From NCBI GenBank assembly GCA_030652115.1, contig JAUSBK010000011.1, positions 62,001 through 126,000 on the forward strand: a DNA stretch of 64,000 bases, read 5' to 3'. Origin of the DNA: Coriobacteriia bacterium (GTDB lineage Bacteria; Actinomycetota; Coriobacteriia; Anaerosomatales; Anaerosomataceae). Below, piece by piece: positions 1,564-12,621 of this stretch. The notes beneath the pieces were generated by a model. The model was not told the origin of the DNA. It searched no databases and was given only the letters and a program-made list of their open reading frames with translations. The translations under genes and the position numbers were made by a program. How positions within the stretch are numbered: position 1 is the stretch's first letter; every line of letters starts with the position of its first letter.

Positions 1564-3198
1564 TTACTGCCCGATCCAGAACGCCGGACCCTCGAAGCGG
1601 TACACGTTCGGCCAGGTGGCGATCACCATGTCGGCCTCTTCGGCGGAGGCGGTGTAGAAGTGGCTGCCGTTGCGCAGGTTGAAGAACCGGTAGACCGGCG
1701 CGCTGTTGGGGACCGGCGCCGGGTTCACGGCGTACGTCTGGCCGTCGAGCTGGAAGATGGTCGGCCAGGTGGCCAGGATGTGCGCGGCTTCTTCGGCGGA
1801 GGCCGTGTAGAAGTGGCTCGCGCTCACCTTATTGTAGAAGCGGTAGAGCGGCTGCGTGTTGTTGTTGAGGTTCGTGTAGTAGCAGATGCCCTCGTACCGG
1901 AAGACCTTCGGGTAGTTCACGATGACCGAATTCGCCTCGTCGAGCGACGAGGTGAAGAAGTGCGTGTTGTTGGTGAAGTTGTAGAAGCGGTAGACGGGGG
2001 CGGGGGCGGGGGGAAGCGCCTGACCCGTGCTGGTGAACACCTCGTAGTCGCTGCCACCGTCTGTGCCACCCGCGCCGAACCACGCGATGCGTGTGCCCGA
2101 GACGACCGGCGCGAGGTCGTCGGCACCATCGGTTGTGAGTTGTATCGTTCCCCCGGTCGGCGTCCACGCGAAGATCTCCGCGTCGGCACCGTCCGGTGCG
2201 CCGGACCAAACGACGCGGTCGCCCGACACCAGCGGCACGTTGTCCATGAACTCGAGATAGTAGGGATCTGGCACCGAGTTCGTGGTGAGCTGGACGACCC
2301 CGCCGGCTGGCGTCCAGGTGAAGATCTCTCCGTCGGCCCCGCCATCGGTGCCGCCTGCACCGTACCAGGCGATGCGGTCGCCCGACACCGAGGGGAACAC
2401 GTCCCACGCGTCGTCGTCCGTCACGGACTCGAGGCCGCCGCCCGGAGTCCAGGTCACGATCTCGGCGTCCCCGCCAGTGCCGCTGTGCCAGGCGATCCTG
2501 TCTCCGGAGACAGACGCTCCATAGTCCAGGACGCTGTTCTGTGTCAGCTGCACGATGCTCCCGGCGGGCGTCCAGGTGAAGACTTCGTTGTCCGCACCGA
2601 AGTCGGAGCCTCCCTCGCCGATCCATGCTATGCGGTCACCGGAGACCTTCGGGCGCGCCTGTGAGTAGGAGTCGGCGGTCAGCTGCGCGATGCCCCCGGC
2701 GGGCGTCCACGTGAATATCTCTGTGTCCATCCCGCTGTCAGATCCGCCACTGCCGTACCAGACGACCCGATCCCCTGAGACGTCGGGGTACATGTCGTGC
2801 CCGGTGTTGTCGGTCAGTTGCACCACGCCGCCTGCTGGCGTCCACATGCGAATCTCGTAGTCATCACCGGGCCAGGCGTACCACACGATGCGGTCGCCGG
2901 ACACGCGCGGTTCTGCATCATCGAGCGTATCCCGGGTGATCTGCACGACGCCACCGGACGGCGTCCAGGTGAAGACCTCCTGATCGGCGCCACCGTCGGA
3001 TCCGCCGGGTGCGATCCAGGCCACCCGGTCTCCGGACATCGACACGAACATGTCGTTCACGCCGTTGGCCGAAAGCTGCGCTAAGTCATACACGAGCGCG
3101 CTCGCCGGCGCAGTGCTCGTCATCATCGACATAACGACGCTCGCTGTGGCGATGATGGCCACTATCCGTCGTGCACCGAGTTGCCGCACATGCCTCAC
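1564..3198 (-). CDS. Secreted TolB-like propeller protein with C-terminal DUF5648 repeats
   Basis: A 544-residue exported protein of unknown function. A GTG start at 3198 follows an AGGGGG ribosome site. Residues 1-35 are a signal peptide ending in A-S-A. Residues ~36-395 contain eight tandem units of about 45 residues, each built around VSGDRIxWY followed by an acidic Gly/Asp stretch and FTWTPxGG, which fits an eight-blade WD40/TolB-like propeller. Three DUF5648-type repeats begin near residues 401, 450 and 501, each starting P-[VL]-YRF and carrying HF[YF]T-[SA]-S/A. The last ~44 residues are almost the same as the C-terminus of the neighbouring gene at 3229-4566. That gene lies 30 bases upstream, so the two probably form one transcript ending at the terminator at 1507-1535. 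Cell-surface or matrix binding is a guess. Confidence 0.85.
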   Translation of the reverse strand: MRHVRQLGARRIVAIIATASVVMSMMTSTAPASALVYDLAQLSANGVNDMFVSMSGDRVAWIAPGGSDGGADQEVFTWTPSGGVVQITRDTLDDAEPRVSGDRIVWYAWPGDDYEIRMWTPAGGVVQLTDNTGHDMYPDVSGDRVVWYGSGGSDSGMDTEIFTWTPAGGIAQLTADSYSQARPKVSGDRIAWIGEGGSDFGADNEVFTWTPAGSIVQLTQNSVLDYGASVSGDRIAWHSGTGGDAEIVTWTPGGGLESVTDDDAWDVFPSVSGDRIAWYGAGGTDGGADGEIFTWTPAGGVVQLTTNSVPDPYYLEFMDNVPLVSGDRVVWSGAPDGADAEIFAWTPTGGTIQLTTDGADDLAPVVSGTRIAWFGAGGTDGGSDYEVFTSTGQALPPAPAPVYRFYNFTNNTHFFTSSLDEANSVIVNYPKVFRYEGICYYTNLNNNTQPLYRFYNKVSASHFYTASAEEAAHILATWPTIFQLDGQTYAVNPAPVPNSAPVYRFFNLRNGSHFYTASAEEADMVIATWPNVYRFEGPAFWIGQ

Positions 3199-3228: not shown

Positions 3229-4566
3229 TTACTGGCCGATCCAGAACGCCGGACCTTCGAACGTGTAGATGTGGGGCCACGTGGCGATCACCGTGTCGGC
3301 CTCTTCGGCGGAGGCCGTGTAGAAGTGACTGCCGTTCGTGCGATTGAAGAAGCGGTAGACCGGCACGCTGTTGGCCACGGGGGAGCGGCTCACCGAGTAG
3401 GTGGGGCCGTCGAACGTGAAGACGTGCGGCCATGTGGCGATCACGTAGTTCGCCTCATCCAGGCTTGCGGTGTAGAAGTGGCTGCCGCTGTTGCGGTTGA
3501 AGAAGCGGTAGAGCGGCTGCGTGTTGTTGTCCGGGTTGGTGTAGTACGCCACGCCCTCGAACTCGAAGATGTCGGACCACTGATCGATGACGTTGTTCGC
3601 CTCATCCTCGGATGGCGTGAAGAAGTGCGTGCCGTTCGTGAAGTTGAAGAAGCGATAGACGGGCTGCGGCAGCCTCGTGAGCCGGATGTTGATGTTCGGG
3701 GTGTTCGTGGCGCTGGCAACCGCCACGTCGCCGGGGTAGTAATCGGGGATGATGGTCCAGCCGCTGTCGAAGTTGTTGGGCCACGTGCTGAAGGTGACGA
3801 GGTAGCTGCCAGCAGGGAGCCCGGTGATGCTGTACGCGCCGGATCCGTTCGTGCGCGCGAACCACGTGCCCGAGTCGTCCTCGAGCGAGGCGCGCACCCA
3901 CACGCCCGAAAGCGGCGCGTTGCCCGGCCCGGTCACCACGCCTGAGATCGAACCGGTGCCGCTACCCAGCTGTAGTCCCCCACTCACATAGCCGAATGTC
4001 CCCTCGAACATGAGGGTCGCCGGGTATCCGCTCTGGATGGCGGCGCGCTCGGTCTCACTCGCCGTCAAGAATTGGCTGTTCAGGCCGGGCCCTAGGAACC
4101 GGTAGATCGGGATCTTGCCGGTGCCGGGAGCCCAGGACAGATAGAACGCGACCCCTTCGCTCGTGAAGCGGGTTGGGTAGTACGTGAGAATCTGATTCGC
4201 CTCGGCGAGACCCGCGTACAGGAACGTGTCGGTCTCGACATTGTGCATGCGATAGATTGCCGCCGTGTCGACCGCGGGATCGTAGAGGAACGCGACGCCT
4301 TCATACAAGTAGACGTCCCAGTAGTTATTGATGATGTCGATCGCTTCGGCCAGATTCGCCGTGTAGAGCGTCGCGCCGTTGTACATGTCGGAGAAGCGGT
4401 ACACCGGGACGTAGTTCGGCGTGACGCTGGCCGACATCTCGGTGTCGCCGATGGCCTTGCCGGCAACCGCGCCAGCCACGGAGGTGCCCTGTGCGAACAC
4501 TGGTGCCGGAATCATCGCCGCAAGCGCGATGAGCGCGACAAGCAGAACTAACGTGCGTCTCTTCAT
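3229..4566 (-). CDS. Secreted protein: six DUF5648 repeats flanking a carboxypeptidase-regulatory-like domain
   Basis: The reading frame is open far upstream, but the ATG at 4566 is chosen because it begins a clear signal peptide (MKRRTLVLLVALIALAAM, cleavage near A-Q-G) and follows a G-rich ribosome site. The mature protein (445 residues in all) has three divergent DUF5648-type repeats (PVYRF, AIYRM and PIYRF starts). Next comes a Gly-rich transthyretin-like domain (SGVV...LSGVWVRA, then YSITGLPAGSYLVTF) of the carboxypeptidase-regulatory type. Three well-kept DUF5648 repeats close it. The final repeat is nearly identical to that of the downstream gene, evidence of recent duplication or exchange. 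Function unknown; the architecture suggests an extracellular binding or structural protein. Confidence 0.85.
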   Translation of the reverse strand: MKRRTLVLLVALIALAAMIPAPVFAQGTSVAGAVAGKAIGDTEMSASVTPNYVPVYRFSDMYNGATLYTANLAEAIDIINNYWDVYLYEGVAFLYDPAVDTAAIYRMHNVETDTFLYAGLAEANQILTYYPTRFTSEGVAFYLSWAPGTGKIPIYRFLGPGLNSQFLTASETERAAIQSGYPATLMFEGTFGYVSGGLQLGSGTGSISGVVTGPGNAPLSGVWVRASLEDDSGTWFARTNGSGAYSITGLPAGSYLVTFSTWPNNFDSGWTIIPDYYPGDVAVASATNTPNINIRLTRLPQPVYRFFNFTNGTHFFTPSEDEANNVIDQWSDIFEFEGVAYYTNPDNNTQPLYRFFNRNSGSHFYTASLDEANYVIATWPHVFTFDGPTYSVSRSPVANSVPVYRFFNRTNGSHFYTASAEEADTVIATWPHIYTFEGPAFWIGQ

Positions 4567-4742
4567 CGGATCATGCCCCCCAACGGTACCGAATGGACTC
4601 AGTCTTGGGACTTCGCCGTCGGGCTGGGTGTTCCTGCCATTTCGCTTATGTGACATTGTCTCACCGGGTGCGCATGCTGCGGGGCGGGCCTGGTGCGTGT
4701 CTGCGCGGTTACTTGGGCCTGACCGAACGAGGGCTTTCGCCC

Positions 4743-4772
4743 TTGACACCCCCACCGCTCGCCCCGTACCTT
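4743..4772 (+). promoter_or_regulatory. Promoter of the T-box/methionine operon
   Basis: A perfect TTGACA -35 (4743-4748) is followed after 18 bases by TACCTT (4767-4772) as -10. Transcription would start near 4779, just before the 5' hairpin of the leader. The assignment rests on consensus match and position only. Confidence 0.6.
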
Positions 4773-4782
4773 TGTGCGACAA

Positions 4783-5121
4783 CTTCACAGTCGCCTGTGA
4801 AGGGGATGAGTACGCGCACTCGAGTAGGGCTCCAGAGAGCCGGAGCAGCTGAGAACCGGCGCCCGAAAGAACGCGGAACATGGCCCCTGAGGCATCCGGA
4901 GGAAACGCGCTTCTAGCGGAGTAATGCCGGACGGACGCCCCCGTTATCGTAGGCTGCATGAGCATCGGACACCGTCGGCGAAGATCTCCCGCCCGCCGGC
5001 AACCACCACCGTCCCGTGCTCGAGAAGAGGTCACGAGTACTCGTGACGAAGTCGGGTGGTACCGCGAAAGAGCCTGAGCGCCTTTCGCCCTGACGAACAG
5101 TCCGGGCGGGAGGTGTTTTTT
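4783..5121 (+). promoter_or_regulatory. T-box riboswitch leader, predicted tRNA-Met specific
   Basis: A complete T-box can be traced. A small 5' hairpin occupies 4783-4802. Stem I closes by GGATG (4804-4808) with CATCC (4893-4897). It holds the AGTA element (4809-4812), the AGAGAG bulge (4834-4839) and the distal GCTGAGA loop (4848-4854). On its 3' side GGAAC precedes the triplet ATG at 4880-4882, where the specifier codon belongs. A second helix pairs 4926-4934 with 4972-4979. Stem III is the perfect hairpin 5030-5047. The T-box core TGGTACCGCG is at 5057-5066. The antiterminator pairs GCGAAAG (5064-5070) with CTTTCGC (5082-5088). The competing terminator pairs CCTTTCGCCC (5081-5090) with GGGCGGGAGG (5104-5113), followed by six T at 5116-5121. 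Uncharged tRNA-Met should favour the antiterminator. The downstream genes make methionine, in agreement. Confidence 0.87.
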
Positions 5122-5141
5122 CATGTTCGGAGGTAGGTCGT

Positions 5142-6314
5142 ATGGCCAAGAGCTGGGAAGAGATCAATGCGCGCATCGCGAGCGGTGAGGCAGTCGTCTT
5201 CACCGCCGAGGAGTTCGCGTCGCTTGCCGCCGACGAGGGGGTGAGCGCAGCCGCCAAGAGGGTGGACGTGGTCACCACCGGGACGTTCGGCCCGATGTGC
5301 TCCTCGGGGGTGATCCTCAACTTCGGGCACTCGGACCCGCCGATCCGCATGGCCGAGGTCTGGCTGAACGACGTTGCGGCCTACGGCGGCCTGGCGGCGG
5401 TGGACACCTACCTCGGCGTGACGCAGCCGAGCACCACGCGCGGGCTTGAGTACGGCGGCGCGCACGTGATCGAGGACCTGTTGCGCGGGCGTGCGGTGCG
5501 ACTGCGCGCGACGAGCCCCGGGACCGACTGCTACCCGCGTACGGAGATCGACACCTGGATCACGCTCGACGACCTGAACCAGGCGTACTTCTTCAACCCG
5601 CGGAACGCCTACCAGAACTACGCCGTGGCCGTGAACACCACCGACCGGGCGCTGCACACGTACCTCGGCACGCTGCTGCCGCGGCTCGGCAACGCCACGT
5701 ACTGCTCGGCGGGGGCGCTTTCGCCGCTGCTGAACGACCCCACGTACCGCACGATCGGCGTCGGGTCGCGCATCTTCGTGGCCGGTGCGCCGGGCTACGT
5801 GGCCTGGGAAGGCACGCAGCACAACCCGCACGCCGACCGCGACGAGCATGGCGTGCCCGTGCGGCCGGCAGGCACGCTCGCGGTGATCGCCGACCTCAAG
5901 GCGGCTTCGCCCGAGTTCTTCTCGGCGGCGAGCTTCACCGGCTACGGCGTCTCGAGTTTCGTCGGGATCGGCGTGCCGATCCCCGTGCTCGACGAGGAGA
6001 TCGCGGCCACGCTTGCGCTCACCGACGCGGACATCACCGCCACGATCTACGACTACGGTGTGGCCGGTCGCTCGCGCCCGTCATTCGGCACGGTCAGTTA
6101 CGCGCAGCTGCGCACCGGATCGATCACGGTCGAGGGCAAGAAGGTCCCGACCGGGCCGATCAGCTCTCTTCCCAAGGCGCGGAAGATCGCGGCCGAACTG
6201 AAGCGGTGGATCGCCGAGGAGCGCTTCGCGATCGCCGAGCCGCTGCAGCTGCTCCCGCAGGTGGGGAGCCAGGCGCAGAAGCCGCTCGACATCAGGACAG
6301 GGGAGGCGATCTAG
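5142..6314 (+). CDS. DUF39 homocysteine biosynthesis protein (L-aspartate semialdehyde sulfurtransferase, catalytic subunit)
   Basis: A 390-residue DUF39 protein, the family of Methanosarcina acetivorans MA1821. In that system the DUF39 protein and a NIL/ferredoxin partner introduce sulfur into aspartate semialdehyde to give homocysteine, bypassing the O-acylhomoserine route. Cys53 (in GPMCSSG) and Cys130 (in GTDCYP) are at about the positions of the two conserved functional cysteines of that family; this alignment is from memory. The CBS pair found in some relatives is absent. The ATG at 5142 follows a CGGAGGT ribosome site and is the first gene after the T-box terminator. The NIL/ferredoxin gene starts 2 bases after its stop, matching the two-subunit arrangement. 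Confidence 0.88.
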   Translation: MAKSWEEINARIASGEAVVFTAEEFASLAADEGVSAAAKRVDVVTTGTFGPMCSSGVILNFGHSDPPIRMAEVWLNDVAAYGGLAAVDTYLGVTQPSTTRGLEYGGAHVIEDLLRGRAVRLRATSPGTDCYPRTEIDTWITLDDLNQAYFFNPRNAYQNYAVAVNTTDRALHTYLGTLLPRLGNATYCSAGALSPLLNDPTYRTIGVGSRIFVAGAPGYVAWEGTQHNPHADRDEHGVPVRPAGTLAVIADLKAASPEFFSAASFTGYGVSSFVGIGVPIPVLDEEIAATLALTDADITATIYDYGVAGRSRPSFGTVSYAQLRTGSITVEGKKVPTGPISSLPKARKIAAELKRWIAEERFAIAEPLQLLPQVGSQAQKPLDIRTGEAI

Positions 6315-6316
6315 CC

Positions 6317-6724
6317 ATGGCCCGCAAGAGACTCGACCTCACGTTCCCGCCCCGGCAGTCCCTGAAGCCGGTCATCTACCACCTCGTGAAGGACTACGAT
6401 CTCGTGCCCAACATCCTGCGCGCTCAGATCCACCCCGCGCAGGAAGGGCGCATGGTGCTCGAAGTCACGGGCACCAAGGAGGACTTTGCGGCCGGCGTGG
6501 CCTTCCTCGAGGGTCAGGGACTGATCGTCAACGAGGCCGCGAGCGACATCGTGCTCGATGAAGAGCGCTGCGTGAACTGCGGCCTGTGCACGGCGGTCTG
6601 CAAGCCCGACGCGCTCACGCTCGACCCGGAGGCGCAGACGCTGTGCTTCGACAAGGACAAGTGCGTGTACTGCGAAGCGTGCGTGATAGCCTGTCCGCGC
6701 AGAGCGATCACGCTCACGTTCTAA
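6317..6724 (+). CDS. NIL-domain ferredoxin, electron-transfer partner of the DUF39 protein
   Basis: The start at 6317 gives a 135-residue protein. Residues 1-75 are a NIL domain, a ferredoxin-like fold also seen in methionine ABC ATPases. Residues 80-135 are a two-cluster ferredoxin with cysteines 85, 88, 91, 95 and 116, 119, 122, 126 (two CxxCxxCxxxC sets, the last three of each followed by K/R-P or P-R). This matches MA1822-type partners, which supply electrons during sulfide incorporation into homocysteine. The upstream DUF39 stop is 2 bases away, so the pair is co-translated. An in-frame extension upstream exists but lies inside the DUF39 gene and has no family similarity. Confidence 0.88.
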   Translation: MARKRLDLTFPPRQSLKPVIYHLVKDYDLVPNILRAQIHPAQEGRMVLEVTGTKEDFAAGVAFLEGQGLIVNEAASDIVLDEERCVNCGLCTAVCKPDALTLDPEAQTLCFDKDKCVYCEACVIACPRRAITLTF

Positions 6725-6736
6725 GAGGGGACGAGG

Positions 6737-7105
6737 ATGCCTCAGCTCGCGTTCGTGCAGGTCATGGCGGTGGCGGCCTTCGCCGCGATCCTCGCGGTCG
6801 TGCTCGCCATGCCCGTCAGCGCGCGCCTCGGCCACCGTGCCGGCAGGGTGCTCCTGCGCACGAGTCTGATCGGCGTCCTTGCCGTCTTCGCCGGCTCTCT
6901 GGTGTGGGGATCGTCCACGGGCGACCTCGGCAGGTTCAACGCGCGGGAGGGTACGAGCGCCTGGCTCCAGCTGGGAGCGTTCTTCGGCATCGTCTACGGG
7001 ACCGGCTACCGGTTCGTGTCCATGTACATCGCCGACAAGGCCGCGCGTGCGGCCGAGGCGAGCGGCGCTGCGGCGGCAGCCGGGGAGGGTGATACAGATG
7101 CCTGA
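6737..7105 (+). CDS. Small three-helix membrane protein of unknown function in the methionine operon
   Basis: A 122-residue protein I do not recognise. Three hydrophobic segments are visible at about residues 5-27, 38-58 and 76-97, with an Ala/Glu-rich cytosolic-type tail. The ATG follows GAGGGGACGAGG, a good ribosome site. Its stop lies inside the start of the methionine synthase gene (8-base overlap), so translation is likely coupled and the product is presumably needed with the pathway. Nothing in the sequence shows a substrate. A transporter helper or an anchoring subunit are possibilities without direct support. Confidence 0.75.
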   Translation: MPQLAFVQVMAVAAFAAILAVVLAMPVSARLGHRAGRVLLRTSLIGVLAVFAGSLVWGSSTGDLGRFNAREGTSAWLQLGAFFGIVYGTGYRFVSMYIADKAARAAEASGAAAAAGEGDTDA

Positions 7106-9509
7106 TATCGCACTGCGGCTCGGCTGCGAGGTGCTCGTGCTCGACGGCGCGATGGGCACGATGCTGCAGAAGCACAACCTGCCGGCTGAGCAGTCGTTCG
7201 TGCAGCTCAACATCACGGCACCCGACCTCGTTATCGAGGTCCATCGCCTGTACAACCTGGCGGGCGCGGACTGCGCCACCACGAACTCCTTCGGCGGGAC
7301 GCGTATCAAGCTCGACGCGTACGGGCTCGGCGACCAGGTGGAGGAACTCAACCGCGCCTCGGTGCGTGTTGCGCGAGCGAGCGGCGCCACGCATATCCTC
7401 GGCGAGCTGGGTCCCACGGGCCATGTGCTCGAGCCGCTGGGGAGCGTACGCTTCGACGAGCTGTTCGACGCGTTTGCCGAGCAGGCGGCGGCGCTTGCCG
7501 CGGAGCGGCCGGACGCGATCCAGATAGCCACGATGACCGACATCGCCGAGGCGCGTTGCGCCGTACTGGCGGCACGCTCGGTCACCGACCTGCCGGTGTT
7601 CGTGACGTGCACCTTCGGGCTGAGCGGCCGCATGGATCTCTCGGGCACCGACCCCGAGACCGCCGCGGTGATCCTCGAGGCTGCGGGCGCCTCCGTGGTC
7701 GGGATGAACTGCGGCCTCGGCCCCGAGCAGATGCTGCCGCTTCTGGAGCGGATGGCGCGCGCCACGACACTCCCGATCATCGTGCGGCCGAACGCGGGCC
7801 TGCCCCGGCTGGTGGACGGCAAGACGGTCTTCCCGGGCACCGCGCTCGAGATGGGCCAGTACGCCGCGCGCTTCGTGTCCGCCGGCGCGTCGCTCGTGGG
7901 CTCATGCTGCGGTTCCACGCCCGAGTTCACGGGCGCCATCTTCGACTTCGCCAAGGGACGCCCCCTGGCCGTGCGTGAGGCGCCGCCCGCGGGCGTGACC
8001 GTGGCCGGACCGCGCGGCGTGGTGCGCATCGGTGGCGGGCGTCCGCTCGTGCGCATCGGCGAGCGCATCAACCCCACCGGCAAGAAGCGCCTCGCCGAGT
8101 CGCTGCGCGCGGGCACGCTCGATGTGGTGCGCGAGTACGCCATCGAGCAGCAGGACGCGGGGGCGGACCTACTCGACGTGAACGTGGGCGCCGCCGGCGT
8201 CATCCAGGCGGACGTCCTGCCGAAGGCGGTCCTCGCGCTCGCCGGGCTCGTGGACCTCCCCTTGGTCCTCGACACGACCGATCCGGCGGCCCTCGAGGCC
8301 GCCCTCAAGGTCTACCCGGGCCGCGCGCTCGTGAACAGCGTGAGCGGCGAGGCACGCTCGATCGCCTCGGTGCTGCCGCTTGCCGCGCACTACGGCGCGG
8401 CCGTCGTGGTGCTCGCGCTCGACGACAGCGGCATCCCGCACGCAGCGGACGCCCGCGTGGCGGTCGTAGAGCGCGTGCGCGAGGCTGCGCATGCCGCGGG
8501 ACTCACCGACCGCGATCTCGTCGCCGACACGCTCGTGCTCGCCGCTGCCACCGAAGAGGCTGGCGCGAGCGCCACGCTCAAGGCGATCGCGGCGGTGAGC
8601 CACGACCTCGGCCTCGCCACGCTCGCCGGTGTGAGCAACGTGAGTCACGGCCTGCCGGGTCGGCCGCTGCTCAACGCGCAGTTCCTCGCGATGGCGGTCC
8701 ACTCGGGCCTGACTGCTGCGATCGTGAACCCCTCGGAGACCGTGGAGCTCGACGCGCCCACCGCTTCGGCTGCTGCCGACGCGCTCCTTGGCCGTGACGT
8801 GCGCGCCGAGGGGTGGATCGCGCGTGTAGCTGCCTCGGATGGCGGCTCTGTGCCGGCCGCGCGGGTCACGACCGGCACGACGGCCGAGCGTCTCGGCCTC
8901 GCGATCGAGCGCGGCGACGCGGACTCGGCTCCCGGGCTCGTCGACGAGCTCATCGCCGGCGGTCAGGGCCCGCAGGCGGTCATCGCGCAGGTGCTGACGC
9001 CCGCCATCCAGCGCTTGGGCGACGCGTACGGCCGCGGCGATGCCTTTCTGCCGCAGCTCATCGCCGCCGCCGATGCCATGCGGGCGGCCGTCGAGCGCGC
9101 GAAATCGCACCTGCCCGAGGGCTCGGCCACGCACGAGGGCCGCGTCGTCTTCGGCACGGTGAAGGGCGACATCCACTCCATCGGCAAGGACATCTGCGTC
9201 TCGATGCTCGAGAGCCAGGGTTTCCTCGTGGACGATCTGGGTGTGGACGTGGCACCCGAGTCGTTCGCCGAGGCAGCAAAGGCCGCGGATGCGGTCTGTC
9301 TCTCGGCGCTCATGACCACCACGCTGCCGAACATGGAACGCACGGTCGCCGCGGTGCGCGAGATCGCGGCGGTGCCGGTGCTCGTGGGTGGCGCGGTCGT
9401 GACACGCGACTTCGCCGAAGGGCTCGGCGCAGGGTATTCTGAGGACGCACCGGGGTGTGTCGCCGCCGTGCGAGACGCGATCGGCCGCCACAAGGGGACG
9501 AGCAGATGA
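7098..9509 (+). CDS. metH: Cobalamin-dependent methionine synthase, short form without reactivation domain
   Basis: An 803-residue protein in MetH order. The homocysteine S-methyltransferase barrel (about 1-290) has zinc ligands Cys205 (GMNCG) and Cys270-Cys271 (GSCCGS). A pterin-binding barrel for methyltetrahydrofolate spans about 315-575, with GERINPTG at its start. The cobalamin module (about 590-803) has the DxHxxG motif with lower axial ligand His693. The C-terminal AdoMet-binding reactivation domain of E. coli MetH (about 1227 residues) is missing, as in other short bacterial MetH enzymes. The ATG at 7098 is chosen because conserved sequence begins there; longer frames read through the preceding gene. 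It overlaps the next gene by ATGA, so the operon is tightly coupled. Confidence 0.93.
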   Translation: MPDIALRLGCEVLVLDGAMGTMLQKHNLPAEQSFVQLNITAPDLVIEVHRLYNLAGADCATTNSFGGTRIKLDAYGLGDQVEELNRASVRVARASGATHILGELGPTGHVLEPLGSVRFDELFDAFAEQAAALAAERPDAIQIATMTDIAEARCAVLAARSVTDLPVFVTCTFGLSGRMDLSGTDPETAAVILEAAGASVVGMNCGLGPEQMLPLLERMARATTLPIIVRPNAGLPRLVDGKTVFPGTALEMGQYAARFVSAGASLVGSCCGSTPEFTGAIFDFAKGRPLAVREAPPAGVTVAGPRGVVRIGGGRPLVRIGERINPTGKKRLAESLRAGTLDVVREYAIEQQDAGADLLDVNVGAAGVIQADVLPKAVLALAGLVDLPLVLDTTDPAALEAALKVYPGRALVNSVSGEARSIASVLPLAAHYGAAVVVLALDDSGIPHAADARVAVVERVREAAHAAGLTDRDLVADTLVLAAATEEAGASATLKAIAAVSHDLGLATLAGVSNVSHGLPGRPLLNAQFLAMAVHSGLTAAIVNPSETVELDAPTASAAADALLGRDVRAEGWIARVAASDGGSVPAARVTTGTTAERLGLAIERGDADSAPGLVDELIAGGQGPQAVIAQVLTPAIQRLGDAYGRGDAFLPQLIAAADAMRAAVERAKSHLPEGSATHEGRVVFGTVKGDIHSIGKDICVSMLESQGFLVDDLGVDVAPESFAEAAKAADAVCLSALMTTTLPNMERTVAAVREIAAVPVLVGGAVVTRDFAEGLGAGYSEDAPGCVAAVRDAIGRHKGTSR

Positions 9510-10168
9510 TCATCACCAGGCCGCGAGACTGGTCGCGCATCAAAGCAAACCTCGAGTCCATCGGCGCCAGGCGCGTCTTCCTCATGGGCTGCGGTCAGTG
9601 CGCGACCGTGGCGCATACCGGCGGCGAACCCGAACTCCGGGAGATGGCCGAGCGCATGGCCGAGGTGGGCGTGGAAGTCACCGGCTGGACGGTCGGTGAG
9701 GTGACCTGCCATCTGAACGGCACGAGGCTCGAGAGCCGCAAGCATCAGGAGGCCATCGACGCTGCGGACGCAGTGCTCGTGCTCGCGTGCGGCGCAGGCG
9801 TGCAGACCACTGCCGACGCCATCGGCAAGCCGGTGTTCCCGGCACTCGAGTCGCTGTTCCTCGGCACGGTCATCCGCAACGGCATCTTCGAGGAGCGCTG
9901 CCAGACCTGCGGTGACTGCGTGCTCGACCAGACCGCAGGCATCTGCCCCGTCACGACCTGCCCGAAGGGGCTCTTGAACGGCCCATGCGGCGGCATGTGG
10001 GACGGCATGTGCGAGGTGCTCACCGATCGTGAGTGCACGCACGTGCGCATCCGCAAGCGGCTTGCCGAGCAGGGTCGTGCGAGCAAAGGGACGCTCGCTC
10101 CTAAGGACTTCTCGACGGCGCTCAAGCCCGGCGCCGTGGACATCCACGACCGGAAGGCCGAGCGATGA
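9506..10168 (+). CDS. Methylenetetrahydrofolate reductase C-terminal-domain protein (MetV-like)
   Basis: A 220-residue cysteine-rich protein of the MTHFR C-terminal family, known as MetV in acetogens, where it forms the electron-accepting partner of MetF. Visible motifs are GCGQCATVAHTGG near the N-terminus and a C-terminal cluster CQTCGDC, CPVTTCPKG and GPCGG, suited to Fe-S or zinc binding. The start ATG at 9506 overlaps the metH stop (ATGA) and its own stop overlaps metF by 4 bases. Membership of a MetV-MetF pair suggests the reductase uses ferredoxin or another low-potential carrier rather than NADH alone; that is inference from the family. Confidence 0.87.
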   Translation: MIITRPRDWSRIKANLESIGARRVFLMGCGQCATVAHTGGEPELREMAERMAEVGVEVTGWTVGEVTCHLNGTRLESRKHQEAIDAADAVLVLACGAGVQTTADAIGKPVFPALESLFLGTVIRNGIFEERCQTCGDCVLDQTAGICPVTTCPKGLLNGPCGGMWDGMCEVLTDRECTHVRIRKRLAEQGRASKGTLAPKDFSTALKPGAVDIHDRKAER

Positions 10169-11031
10169 GTCGGCTTCGCGACATGCTCGAGGCCGGGGAG
10201 TTCGTCGTCACCGGCGAGGTGGCGCCGCCCAAGGGCGCCGACCTCACCCACATGCACGCGGCGGTCGACTTACTCGCGCCGCACTGCCATGCGCTCAACG
10301 TCACCGACAACCAGGGTGCGAGCCTGCACCTGGCGAGCCTCGCCGCCTCCAAGGCGATCCTCGACCGGGGGATCGAGCCGATCTTCCAGCAGACGTGCCG
10401 CGACCGGAACCGCCTCGCGCTGCAGAGCGACCTGCTTGCGGCCTGGTCGCTCGGTCTCGAGAACGTGCTGATGGTGACCGGCGACGATCCGCGCGCCGGC
10501 GATCACCCGAACGCGAAGGGCGTCTTCGACCTCGACTCCACCCAGCTTGCGCAGGTGGCGGTGGGGATGAACGAAGGCCACGACATGATGGGCCACGAAC
10601 TCAAGGGTTCGACCGGCTTCTACATCGGCGGGGCGATGTTCCCCGAGGCCGAGCCCTGGGACGTGCAGCTTGCGCGCACCGAGCAGAAGATCGAAGCCGG
10701 CATCCGCTTCTTCCAGACGCAGGCCATCTTCGACATGGCTAAGCTCGAGCGTGCGGTGGAGGCCGTGCGCCCCCTCGGCGCCAAGATCATCGCGAGCGTG
10801 CTGGTCATCAAGAGCCCGGGCGTGATCCGGTTCGTGAACGAGCATCTCGCCGGACTCATGATTCCCGACGCGATCGCCGATCGCATTCGCGGCGCCGAGG
10901 ACCCCGCCGAGGAGGCGATCCGCCTCGCCGCCGAACAGGTGCGCGAGATCCGTCAGATCGCCGACGGGGTGCACGTGATGCCGCTCGGTCTGGATCGCGC
11001 GATCGGGCGCATCCTCGGCGAAGGAGCGTAG
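10165..11031 (+). CDS. metF: 5,10-methylenetetrahydrofolate reductase
   Basis: A 288-residue MetF barrel that reduces methylene-THF to methyl-THF, the methyl donor for the MetH encoded two genes upstream. Typical elements are the N-terminal E-V-x-P-P-K-G (residues 18-24), the FAD-site region with MVTGDDP, GFYIGGAMFP, and the Q-T-Q-x-x-F-D segment (FFQTQAIFD) of the barrel. Length is normal for the family. It is the last clear methionine gene of the operon. The next gene starts 7 bases on and may be co-transcribed, though its function differs. Confidence 0.93.
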   Translation: MSRLRDMLEAGEFVVTGEVAPPKGADLTHMHAAVDLLAPHCHALNVTDNQGASLHLASLAASKAILDRGIEPIFQQTCRDRNRLALQSDLLAAWSLGLENVLMVTGDDPRAGDHPNAKGVFDLDSTQLAQVAVGMNEGHDMMGHELKGSTGFYIGGAMFPEAEPWDVQLARTEQKIEAGIRFFQTQAIFDMAKLERAVEAVRPLGAKIIASVLVIKSPGVIRFVNEHLAGLMIPDAIADRIRGAEDPAEEAIRLAAEQVREIRQIADGVHVMPLGLDRAIGRILGEGA

Positions 11032-11037
11032 GCCGGC

Positions 11038-12621
11038 ATGCGTCGCATCGCACTCTACAGCGATGTGCACGCGAACACGCTCGCGCTCGAGGCGGTTGTG
11101 GCAGCCATCGCCGCCGAGGGAGTCGAGGAGCGCTACTGCCTCGGTGACCTCGTGGGGCTCGGGCCGCGTCCCGAGGAGGCGGTCGCGCTCGTCCGCTCCT
11201 ACGGTGACCGGGTCGTCCAGGGCAACTACGACCGCGCCATCGGGTCGCACCTGCGCAGCCCGGGCAGTGACTTCCCCACGCCGCAAGAGGCGCTCGACGG
11301 TGCCGAGGCGTACGCTTTCACGATCGCCGAGGTCGGGCGCGCCAGTGCCGAGTACCTCTACGCATTGCCACGCGACATCACGATCAATGAGGGCGGCACA
11401 CGTATCGTCCTGTGCCACGGCACGCCGCGGTTCGTGAGCGAGATCGTTGCGTCCGACGCGCCTGCACCGCTTCTGGTGGCCCTCGCGCGGGAGGCCGAGG
11501 CCGATGTCGTCTGCTGCGGGCACACGCACGTGCCTGTGCATCGTTCCGTCCCTTCCGAAGACGGCGTCGTCCACTGGGTGAACGTCGGCTCGGTCGGTCG
11601 TCCGAGGGATGGCGATCCACGGGCGGCGTGGGCTGAGCTCGTGCTCGGCACGCAGGAGGAGGTCCTCGGCCAGGCGCATGCGGACACGGCGTCGCGGCGT
11701 ATCGGGCAGTCCGAGGTGTGGCTGGGCGTCGTCTTCCATCGCATACCGTACGATGGCGATGCGGTGGCCCGCGACATGATCCGCCACGCGCTACCCGCGA
11801 CGCTGGCGGCGGGCATCAAGATCGGTCTTGAGGGCCACGACGCGGAGCAGGCCGCGGCGCGCCGGGCCGAGCAGGCGGCAGGTCCGCAGGCATCGTCGGG
11901 CGATGCTCCGGACGATGAAGACCCGTTCACATGCGGGCACACGCCGTCCGAGCACTGCGCGTGTGTGCTTGAGGACCGCATCGCGGCGTACGAATCGCTT
12001 GCGCGCATGTACCGCGGCGCTCTCGCCGAGGTCTCGCCCGCGGCGCGTCGCCTGCGCAGTGCGATACGGAGCTGTCGCATCAACCGCAACGTGAACGAGG
12101 CGGCCATCCTTGAAGCGTTCCAGAGCGCGGACATCGCGCTTCGTACCTCCGACGGTCGTGCAGCGTTCGAGGCTGAGCGCGACCGGCTGTACGGGCTGGA
12201 GTCCGGTTTCGATCCGTTCGTCCACGTGCTCTCGCCCGAGGAGGGCACGTACGTCTCAGGCGACGTTCAGGGCCACCTGGCGCTCATAGAGGCCGCATAC
12301 GCCGAGGGTGTCTTCACTGCTCCGGAGGTCCGGAACGGACTGCACCCGCCCGATCACATCTCCTCCGAGCTCGACTTCGTCGCACACTGCCTGCGCGGCG
12401 CGGCGGCCGGCGACCCCCGGGCGCGTGACCGCGCCCACGACTTCTTCGCGACACACCTCGCCGAGTGGGCGGTGCTTTTCGCGGTGGTCGTGGGTCAGCA
12501 GGCACGCGAGCCGGTCATGCGCTTCGCCGGTCTGGCGCTCGACAAGTTCCTCACCTGCGAGGGCGCGATCTTCCGTCATGCGGTGCCCGAGCACTGCTAT
12601 CTGCGCACCCCGCATCCGTAA
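11038..12621 (+). CDS. Metallophosphoesterase fused to a TorD-like chaperone domain
   Basis: A single uninterrupted 527-residue frame. Residues 1-205 are a calcineurin-like/YfcE phosphoesterase with SDVHAN, GDLVGLGP, GNYD, the His of LCHGTP, and CGHTHVP followed by NVGSVGRPRDG, so all metal ligands are present. Residues ~205-300 are an Ala-rich linker with a Cys/His patch (CGHTPSEHCACV). Residues ~300-525 resemble the TorD/NarJ/DmsD family of molybdoenzyme chaperones, with SPEEGTYVSGD, PPDHISSELDF and a helical HLAEWAVLF segment. An AAGGAG ribosome site precedes the ATG by about 11 bases. The neighbouring MoaE-like gene supports a molybdoenzyme link. The phosphoesterase substrate is unknown. 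Confidence 0.82.
   Translation: MRRIALYSDVHANTLALEAVVAAIAAEGVEERYCLGDLVGLGPRPEEAVALVRSYGDRVVQGNYDRAIGSHLRSPGSDFPTPQEALDGAEAYAFTIAEVGRASAEYLYALPRDITINEGGTRIVLCHGTPRFVSEIVASDAPAPLLVALAREAEADVVCCGHTHVPVHRSVPSEDGVVHWVNVGSVGRPRDGDPRAAWAELVLGTQEEVLGQAHADTASRRIGQSEVWLGVVFHRIPYDGDAVARDMIRHALPATLAAGIKIGLEGHDAEQAAARRAEQAAGPQASSGDAPDDEDPFTCGHTPSEHCACVLEDRIAAYESLARMYRGALAEVSPAARRLRSAIRSCRINRNVNEAAILEAFQSADIALRTSDGRAAFEAERDRLYGLESGFDPFVHVLSPEEGTYVSGDVQGHLALIEAAYAEGVFTAPEVRNGLHPPDHISSELDFVAHCLRGAAAGDPRARDRAHDFFATHLAEWAVLFAVVVGQQAREPVMRFAGLALDKFLTCEGAIFRHAVPEHCYLRTPHP

Follow-up and report, generated by a model that had tools for sequence, protein, structure and literature searches.

The window, that is, the whole 64,000-nucleotide stretch of Coriobacteriia DNA analyzed here, contained a leader on the + strand that runs from a promoter into an operon whose first gene has its start codon at 5142. 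All elements named in a preliminary description (promoter, Stem I, ATG triplet, Stem II, Stem III, core, both hairpins, and six T) were present in the letters, and a hairpin domain at 4960-5021 was additional to them. The features of the leader, with the basis of each placement where one applies, were as follows:

4743-4772, + strand: promoter, with -35 TTGACA (4743-4748), an 18-nt spacer, and a weak -10 TACCTT (4767-4772); read directly
4793-4893, + strand: Stem I; RF00230 alignment
4809-4812, + strand: GA motif/AGTA in Stem I; read directly and RF00230 alignment
4834-4839, + strand: AGAGAG in Stem I; read directly and RF00230 alignment
4848-4855, + strand: Stem I distal loop, GCTGAGAA; RF00230 alignment
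4880-4882, + strand: specifier codon AUG (Met), followed by the purine G at 4883; ungapped in the RF00230 specifier loop
about 4895-4931, + strand: Stem II, UCCGG/CCGGA, with GAGUAA within; RF00230 alignment and RNAalifold consensus
4932-4954, + strand: Stem IIA/B pseudoknot, pairing CGG 4932-4934 with CCG 4941-4943 and GCC 4937-4939 with GGC 4952-4954
4960-5021, + strand: extra domain, helix P1 closing hairpin P2; covariation in aligned leaders
4960-4964 with 5017-5021 and 4967-4970 with 5011-5014, + strand: P1, GAGCA/UGCUC and GGAC/GUCC
4974-5000, + strand: P2 hairpin, loop CUCCCGCC at 4986-4993
5030-5047, + strand: Stem III, GUCACGAG/CUCGUGAC; compensatory changes in 7 of 8 pairs across 31 leaders
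5052-5093, + strand: antiterminator, with a UGGU bulge complementary to the ACCA end of tRNA-Met
5057-5066, + strand: T-box core UGGUACCGCG (TGGTACCGCG as read directly); one base differs in one leader, otherwise invariant
5076-5121, + strand: intrinsic terminator, stem 5076-5118 and T6 5116-5121
5130-5135, + strand: Shine-Dalgarno GGAGGT, outside the terminator; read directly

The operon behind the leader comprised:

5142-6314, + strand: HcyBio (DUF39), homocysteine synthesis enzyme; PF01837, E 8.4e-146
6317-6724, + strand: protein with a NIL domain and 4Fe-4S ferredoxin; PF09383, E 4.8e-16, and PF00037, E 2.4e-13
6737-7105, + strand: small membrane protein; weak MFS match below cut-off
7098-9509 (start estimated), + strand: MetH-type cobalamin-dependent methionine synthase; PF02574, PF00809, PF02607, and PF02310
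9506-10168, + strand: MetV-like protein (MTHFR C-terminal family); PF12225, E 2.7e-29
10165-11031, + strand: MetF, methylenetetrahydrofolate reductase; PF02219, E 5.9e-32

These Pfam matches agree with the gene set read earlier from the letters (DUF39, NIL-ferredoxin, MetH, MetV-like, and MetF), and the order DUF39-NIL-MetH-MetV-MetF was kept at loci L119, L120, L121, and L212, among which the gene for the small membrane protein was present in the first only. Genetic work in Desulfovibrio and Methanosarcina supports a route to homocysteine through DUF39 and the NIL-ferredoxin protein (PMC5764234). By these domain matches and that precedent, the downstream genes would make homocysteine and then methylate it. 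Close after metF, at 11038-12621, lay a gene joining a calcineurin-like phosphoesterase to a nitrate-reductase-delta-like domain, which was also present in L119 and absent from this position in more distant relatives. Divergent from the operon were two - strand genes, of which the first (3229-4563) has DUF5648 repeats and the second (1564-3198) ends in repeats that look similar by eye.

Searching with the Rfam T-box model, the check that the preliminary description had proposed, gave a highly significant, full-length match to RF00230 (model positions 1-219) at 4788-5095 in a sensitive scan of 4700-5200, with 81 bits and an E-value of 4.8e-18. An Rfam scan of the entire window at default settings returned zero matches, because the 81 bits of the leader lie under the RF00230 gathering score of 93 bits. 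Other T-boxes of the same genome were likewise below 93 bits, specifically those upstream of trpE (79), ileS (72), ilvD (51.9), and pheS (33.3, partial), the open reading frames 3′ of them being ones that we take, from recognizing their sequences, to be these genes. Across the order, 59 of 61 genomes had a T-box match at an E-value of 0.01, and 19 of 61 had one above the gathering score; the T-boxes of this lineage are real, yet mostly under the threshold of routine annotation. The SAM-I model (RF00162) had no match within the leader. Judged from its letters, 4788-5121 is a complete T-box leader, having the Stem I motifs, a specifier that fits the operon, a UGGN bulge, and mutually exclusive hairpins. 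In 31 aligned leaders the AGTA, AGAGAG, and distal-loop columns of Stem I were invariant or nearly so, and both helices of Stem IIA/B were paired in 100% of cells, one IIB pair being compensatory in three sequences.

The specifier loop aligned ungapped to RF00230 as GAA-C-AUG-G-CCCC. We calibrated this placement against other T-boxes, both within the same genome, where ileS had GAAC-AUC-A-CCCC and ilvD had GAAA-CUC-A-CCCC (Leu), and in relatives, where GAAC-CUG-G-CCCC (Leu) and, before ilvD of G030, GAAC-GUG-U-CCCC (Val) were found. Since the T-boxes of the order place the codon directly before one base and a C run, the codon here is AUG, not UGG or ACA. That CATGG holds both AUG and UGG, and that a Trp T-box is present in the same genome, could be taken to mean that the T-box is real and senses another tRNA, its specifier being read in a different frame as UGG (Trp) or ACA (Thr); however, the alignment and the placement rule both give AUG, the trp leaders of the order are one base shorter (GAA-UGG-R-CC), and the operon downstream makes methionine, so that such a reading is scarcely credible. 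For the AUG specifier, drift among homologues had been named as a refuting observation, and none was seen: GAACATGG was identical in every orthologous leader that holds the region (39 genomes, 12 families), GAAC-AUG-G being present throughout. A looser pattern, allowing any base before ATG, found a single T-box of this kind per genome in 39 of the 61 genomes (12 families), and C always preceded the ATG. Separately, the specifier of the ilvD-type T-box was seen to shift across the order, from CUC in the window's genome (L004, G000:C7:6876-7079) to CUG in some relatives and GUG before ilvD of G030 (loci L013, L023, L205).

Three tRNAs of the genome carry the anticodon CAU, and by their sequences we take them to be elongator tRNA-Met (L089), initiator tRNA-fMet (L112), and a tRNA-Ile (L077). 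All three end in A73-CCA, which the UGGU bulge matches, and elongator and initiator both fit the leader. A preference for initiator tRNA-fMet over the elongator, which would couple methionine synthesis to translation initiation, is an appreciable possibility at somewhat under even odds: the met T-box of S. aureus binds initiator tRNA strongly and elongator weakly (PMC3771891), and both tRNAs here share the CAU anticodon and A73. Against it, sequence features favoring either of the two tRNA-Met species were looked for and none was found.

Next, we considered the expression platform. The terminator stem (5076-5118) had a folding energy of -30.1 kcal/mol and a z-score of -4.96, with none of 200 shuffles as good, and was paired in 91.8% of cells across 31 leaders. 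The antiterminator, at -15.3 kcal/mol and z -1.57, was alone within the chance range of shuffles. The two are mutually exclusive via the common strand CUUUCGCCC (5082-5090). A simple consensus scan reported neither the promoter nor the terminator of the leader, because of a mismatch inside the terminator stem and the weakness of the -10; nonetheless, of 37 orthologous leaders, 35 had a TTGAC-type -35 with a correctly spaced -10 in the corresponding position. The terminator-state structure, including IIA/B, the extra domain, and Stem III, was paired in 90.4% of cells across the 31 leaders, with two-sided changes in 19 pairs as compared to 9.6 in shuffles, and every slid control was far lower, a comparison that leans in favor of the structure given that it was drawn from one of the aligned sequences.

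The terminator and its T run after the core, present in nearly all leaders, bear out the transcriptional mode that had been claimed for this T-box. Control is likely exerted at transcription because the Shine-Dalgarno sequence at 5130-5135 lies outside the terminator. Published actinobacterial ileS T-boxes instead sequester the Shine-Dalgarno sequence (PMC1262725), and one Met orthologue (L066) is without a T run, both of which would suit a leader that acts on translation as ileS T-boxes of other Actinobacteria do. Here the Shine-Dalgarno sequence was not sequestered in place of a terminator and lies beyond the terminator stem, six T follow that stem, and a T run of 3-6 is kept in most orthologues, making translational control very improbable and transcriptional control the preferred reading. 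Besides having no T run, the exceptional L066 leader (G057:C18) has lost IIA/B, Stem III, the extra domain, and a good part of Stem II; it could be a translational leader or one in decay.

The extra domain sets the Met leaders apart from the trpE and ileS T-boxes of the genome. About 60 nt lie between IIA/B and Stem III for which no counterpart was seen in those two T-boxes, and IIA/B and the core were 114 nt apart in the Met leader, 86 in trpE, and 51 in ileS. Some trp leaders of relatives were nearly as long (up to 106), and their sequence was different. P1 was paired in 96.8% of cells, with compensatory changes, and P2 in 80.3%, with two-sided changes in all four counted pairs. The P2 stem was variable and its loop was mostly CUCCYGCC, which is complementary to GGCGGGAG (5105-5112) in the 3′ arm of the terminator. 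We consider it tentative, and on balance doubtful, that this loop captures the terminator 3′ arm when the leader is antiterminated, which would constitute a third long-range pairing and an added lock on the two-state switch. That the extra hairpin is a mere spacer, its complementarity to the arm being a by-product of high G+C, is reasonably probable. Loop and arm vary little; a leader's own loop-arm pairs were barely better than swapped ones (-19.1 vs -18.4 kcal/mol); most of the domain (4956-5013) folded no more stably than shuffles (z 0.36); and the domain or its loop was missing in the diverged Met leaders L058, L065, L066, L068, and L121. A spacer fits less well with a loop that stays conserved as the P2 stem varies and that, in 25 of 31 leaders, formed a better duplex with the terminator 3′ arm than any other upstream window did. 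Nor does it readily fit L043, in which both sides were altered together, to CCCCACC with GGUGGGG, pairing at -15.9 kcal/mol as compared to an average of -10.0 for its loop with other arms. A further complementarity exists between the GGUGGU of the T-box core (5055-5060) and an ACCACC at 5005-5010, within the extra domain. Most leaders conserve it, and as the core is invariant at this point, covariation cannot assess such a pairing.

We also followed the leader and DUF39 across the order, in which 43 of 61 genomes had DUF39. Two of these (G041 and G050) were left out, as their DUF39 was cut by a contig end and the upstream region fell outside the assembly. The Met T-box was found in 39 of the 41 genomes assessed and, using the AUG T-box pattern, in 0 of the 18 without DUF39, these being counts from related genomes and not independent observations. 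In G018 and G024 the leader was split between contigs, one part being upstream of DUF39 and the other on a different contig. In the two genomes of a single family that differed (G042, locus L207, and G056, locus L208), DUF39-NIL stood behind a NUDIX-like gene, and neither a T-box nor any other Rfam match was found there. Farther afield, the strict Met-leader pattern had no matches in a sample of 292 genomes, which came from the same phylum but not from the window's family and included none from the order's other families. Among the best 80 DUF39 loci from named genomes, a T-box core was upstream in only three, as detected by a regular expression that could miss degenerate cores; these three were actinobacterial (two labelled Coriobacteriia, one Actinobacteria), nearest to the window's DUF39, and 79-88% identical. 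A predicted Met T-box is conserved across this order of mostly uncultured actinobacteria.

Taken together, we assign a probability of roughly 0.93 to the reading that the leader is a tRNA-Met-specific T-box riboswitch controlling transcription of the homocysteine/methionine synthesis operon. Speaking against this reading are the 81 bits under the 93-bit threshold (shared by the genome's other T-boxes), the antiterminator z of -1.57, the weak -10, the consensus scan's failure to report promoter and terminator, and the one orthologue (L066 in G057) without a T run and several stems. In such a switch, the specifier AUG of Stem I would pair with the CAU anticodon of tRNA-Met, with the distal elements of Stem I and the IIA/B region probably helping to dock the tRNA, as is known for T-boxes. 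Under methionine shortage, uncharged tRNA would pair through its free ACCA end with UGGU and stabilize the antiterminator (5052-5093), allowing RNA polymerase to read into DUF39-NIL/Fd-MetH-MetV-MetF. Charging of tRNA-Met would instead leave the strong terminator (5076-5121) to form, and transcription would be expected to stop. Much less certainly, the P2 loop might pair with the released terminator arm and so help to hold the antiterminated state.

The preliminary description had called a transcriptional tRNA-Met T-box on the DUF39 route unusual for an actinobacterium, a judgment that held for the Met specificity together with that route and did not hold for a terminator T-box away from ileS, as trpE, ilvD, and pheS of the same genome have T-boxes and one is described for the his operon of Corynebacterium (PMC9413887). 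Most descriptions of actinobacterial T-boxes concern ileS and control at the level of translation (PMC1262725, PMC7583486); these ileS T-boxes share the phylum and the T-box core with the present leader and differ in their Ile specificity, truncated Stem I, and Shine-Dalgarno sequestration rather than a terminator. Met T-boxes have been reported for both staphylococci and Lactobacillales (PMC3771891, PMC2494555, PMC3766115). That of S. aureus metICFE-mdh (PMC3771891) likewise precedes methionine synthesis genes and has an AUG specifier, a terminator, and a long leader whose middle part is variable, whereas its phylum and gene set are different ones, it is also under CodY, and its initiator preference has been shown by experiment. 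Those of Lactobacillales (PMC2494555, PMC3766115) share the Met specificity and the association with methionine metabolism and transport genes, although they come from Firmicutes, and the genes listed for them encode transporters and methionine synthesis enzymes outside the DUF39 route. In the open-access literature we found no report pairing a T-box with DUF39, an earlier description in subscription journals or TBDB being possible, and T-box and Coriobacteriia appeared together only in one unrelated paper. The leader is presented as a well-supported putative new member of the T-box family, from an unusual lineage and pathway.

Finally, we compared the leader with SAM-I riboswitches. In five of eight other loci tested, all five clostridial (L122, L124, L127, L130, L134), one lay no more than about 330 bases upstream of DUF39. 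Because clostridial DUF39 operons often carry SAM-I, methionine-related RNA control of a DUF39 operon is to be expected. The clostridial SAM-I has the same position before the same gene and also reports methionine status; it senses S-adenosylmethionine, whereas the window's leader would sense uncharged tRNA. The single SAM-I match in the window's genome (L113, G000:C10:2247-2352; 37.7 bits, below cut-off) precedes metK, and across the order 54 of 61 genomes contain one match each, the gene behind it having been checked in the window's genome only. SAM sensing at metK and tRNA-Met sensing at the synthesis operon appear to be divided between the two RNAs. This suggests regulatory replacement at one operon, with SAM-I in Clostridia and a tRNA-Met T-box here, SAM-I being kept for metK.

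The leader would tie the charging of methionine tRNA to the DUF39, homoserine-independent, route to homocysteine, and this tie supports assigning the whole gene set, including the MetV-like and NIL-ferredoxin proteins, to methionine synthesis. From its extra hairpin comes a concrete proposal, open to testing, that a T-box may have a third pairing. More broadly, regulation in the window's order is under-annotated, with several T-boxes in use and most of them below the Rfam cut-off.
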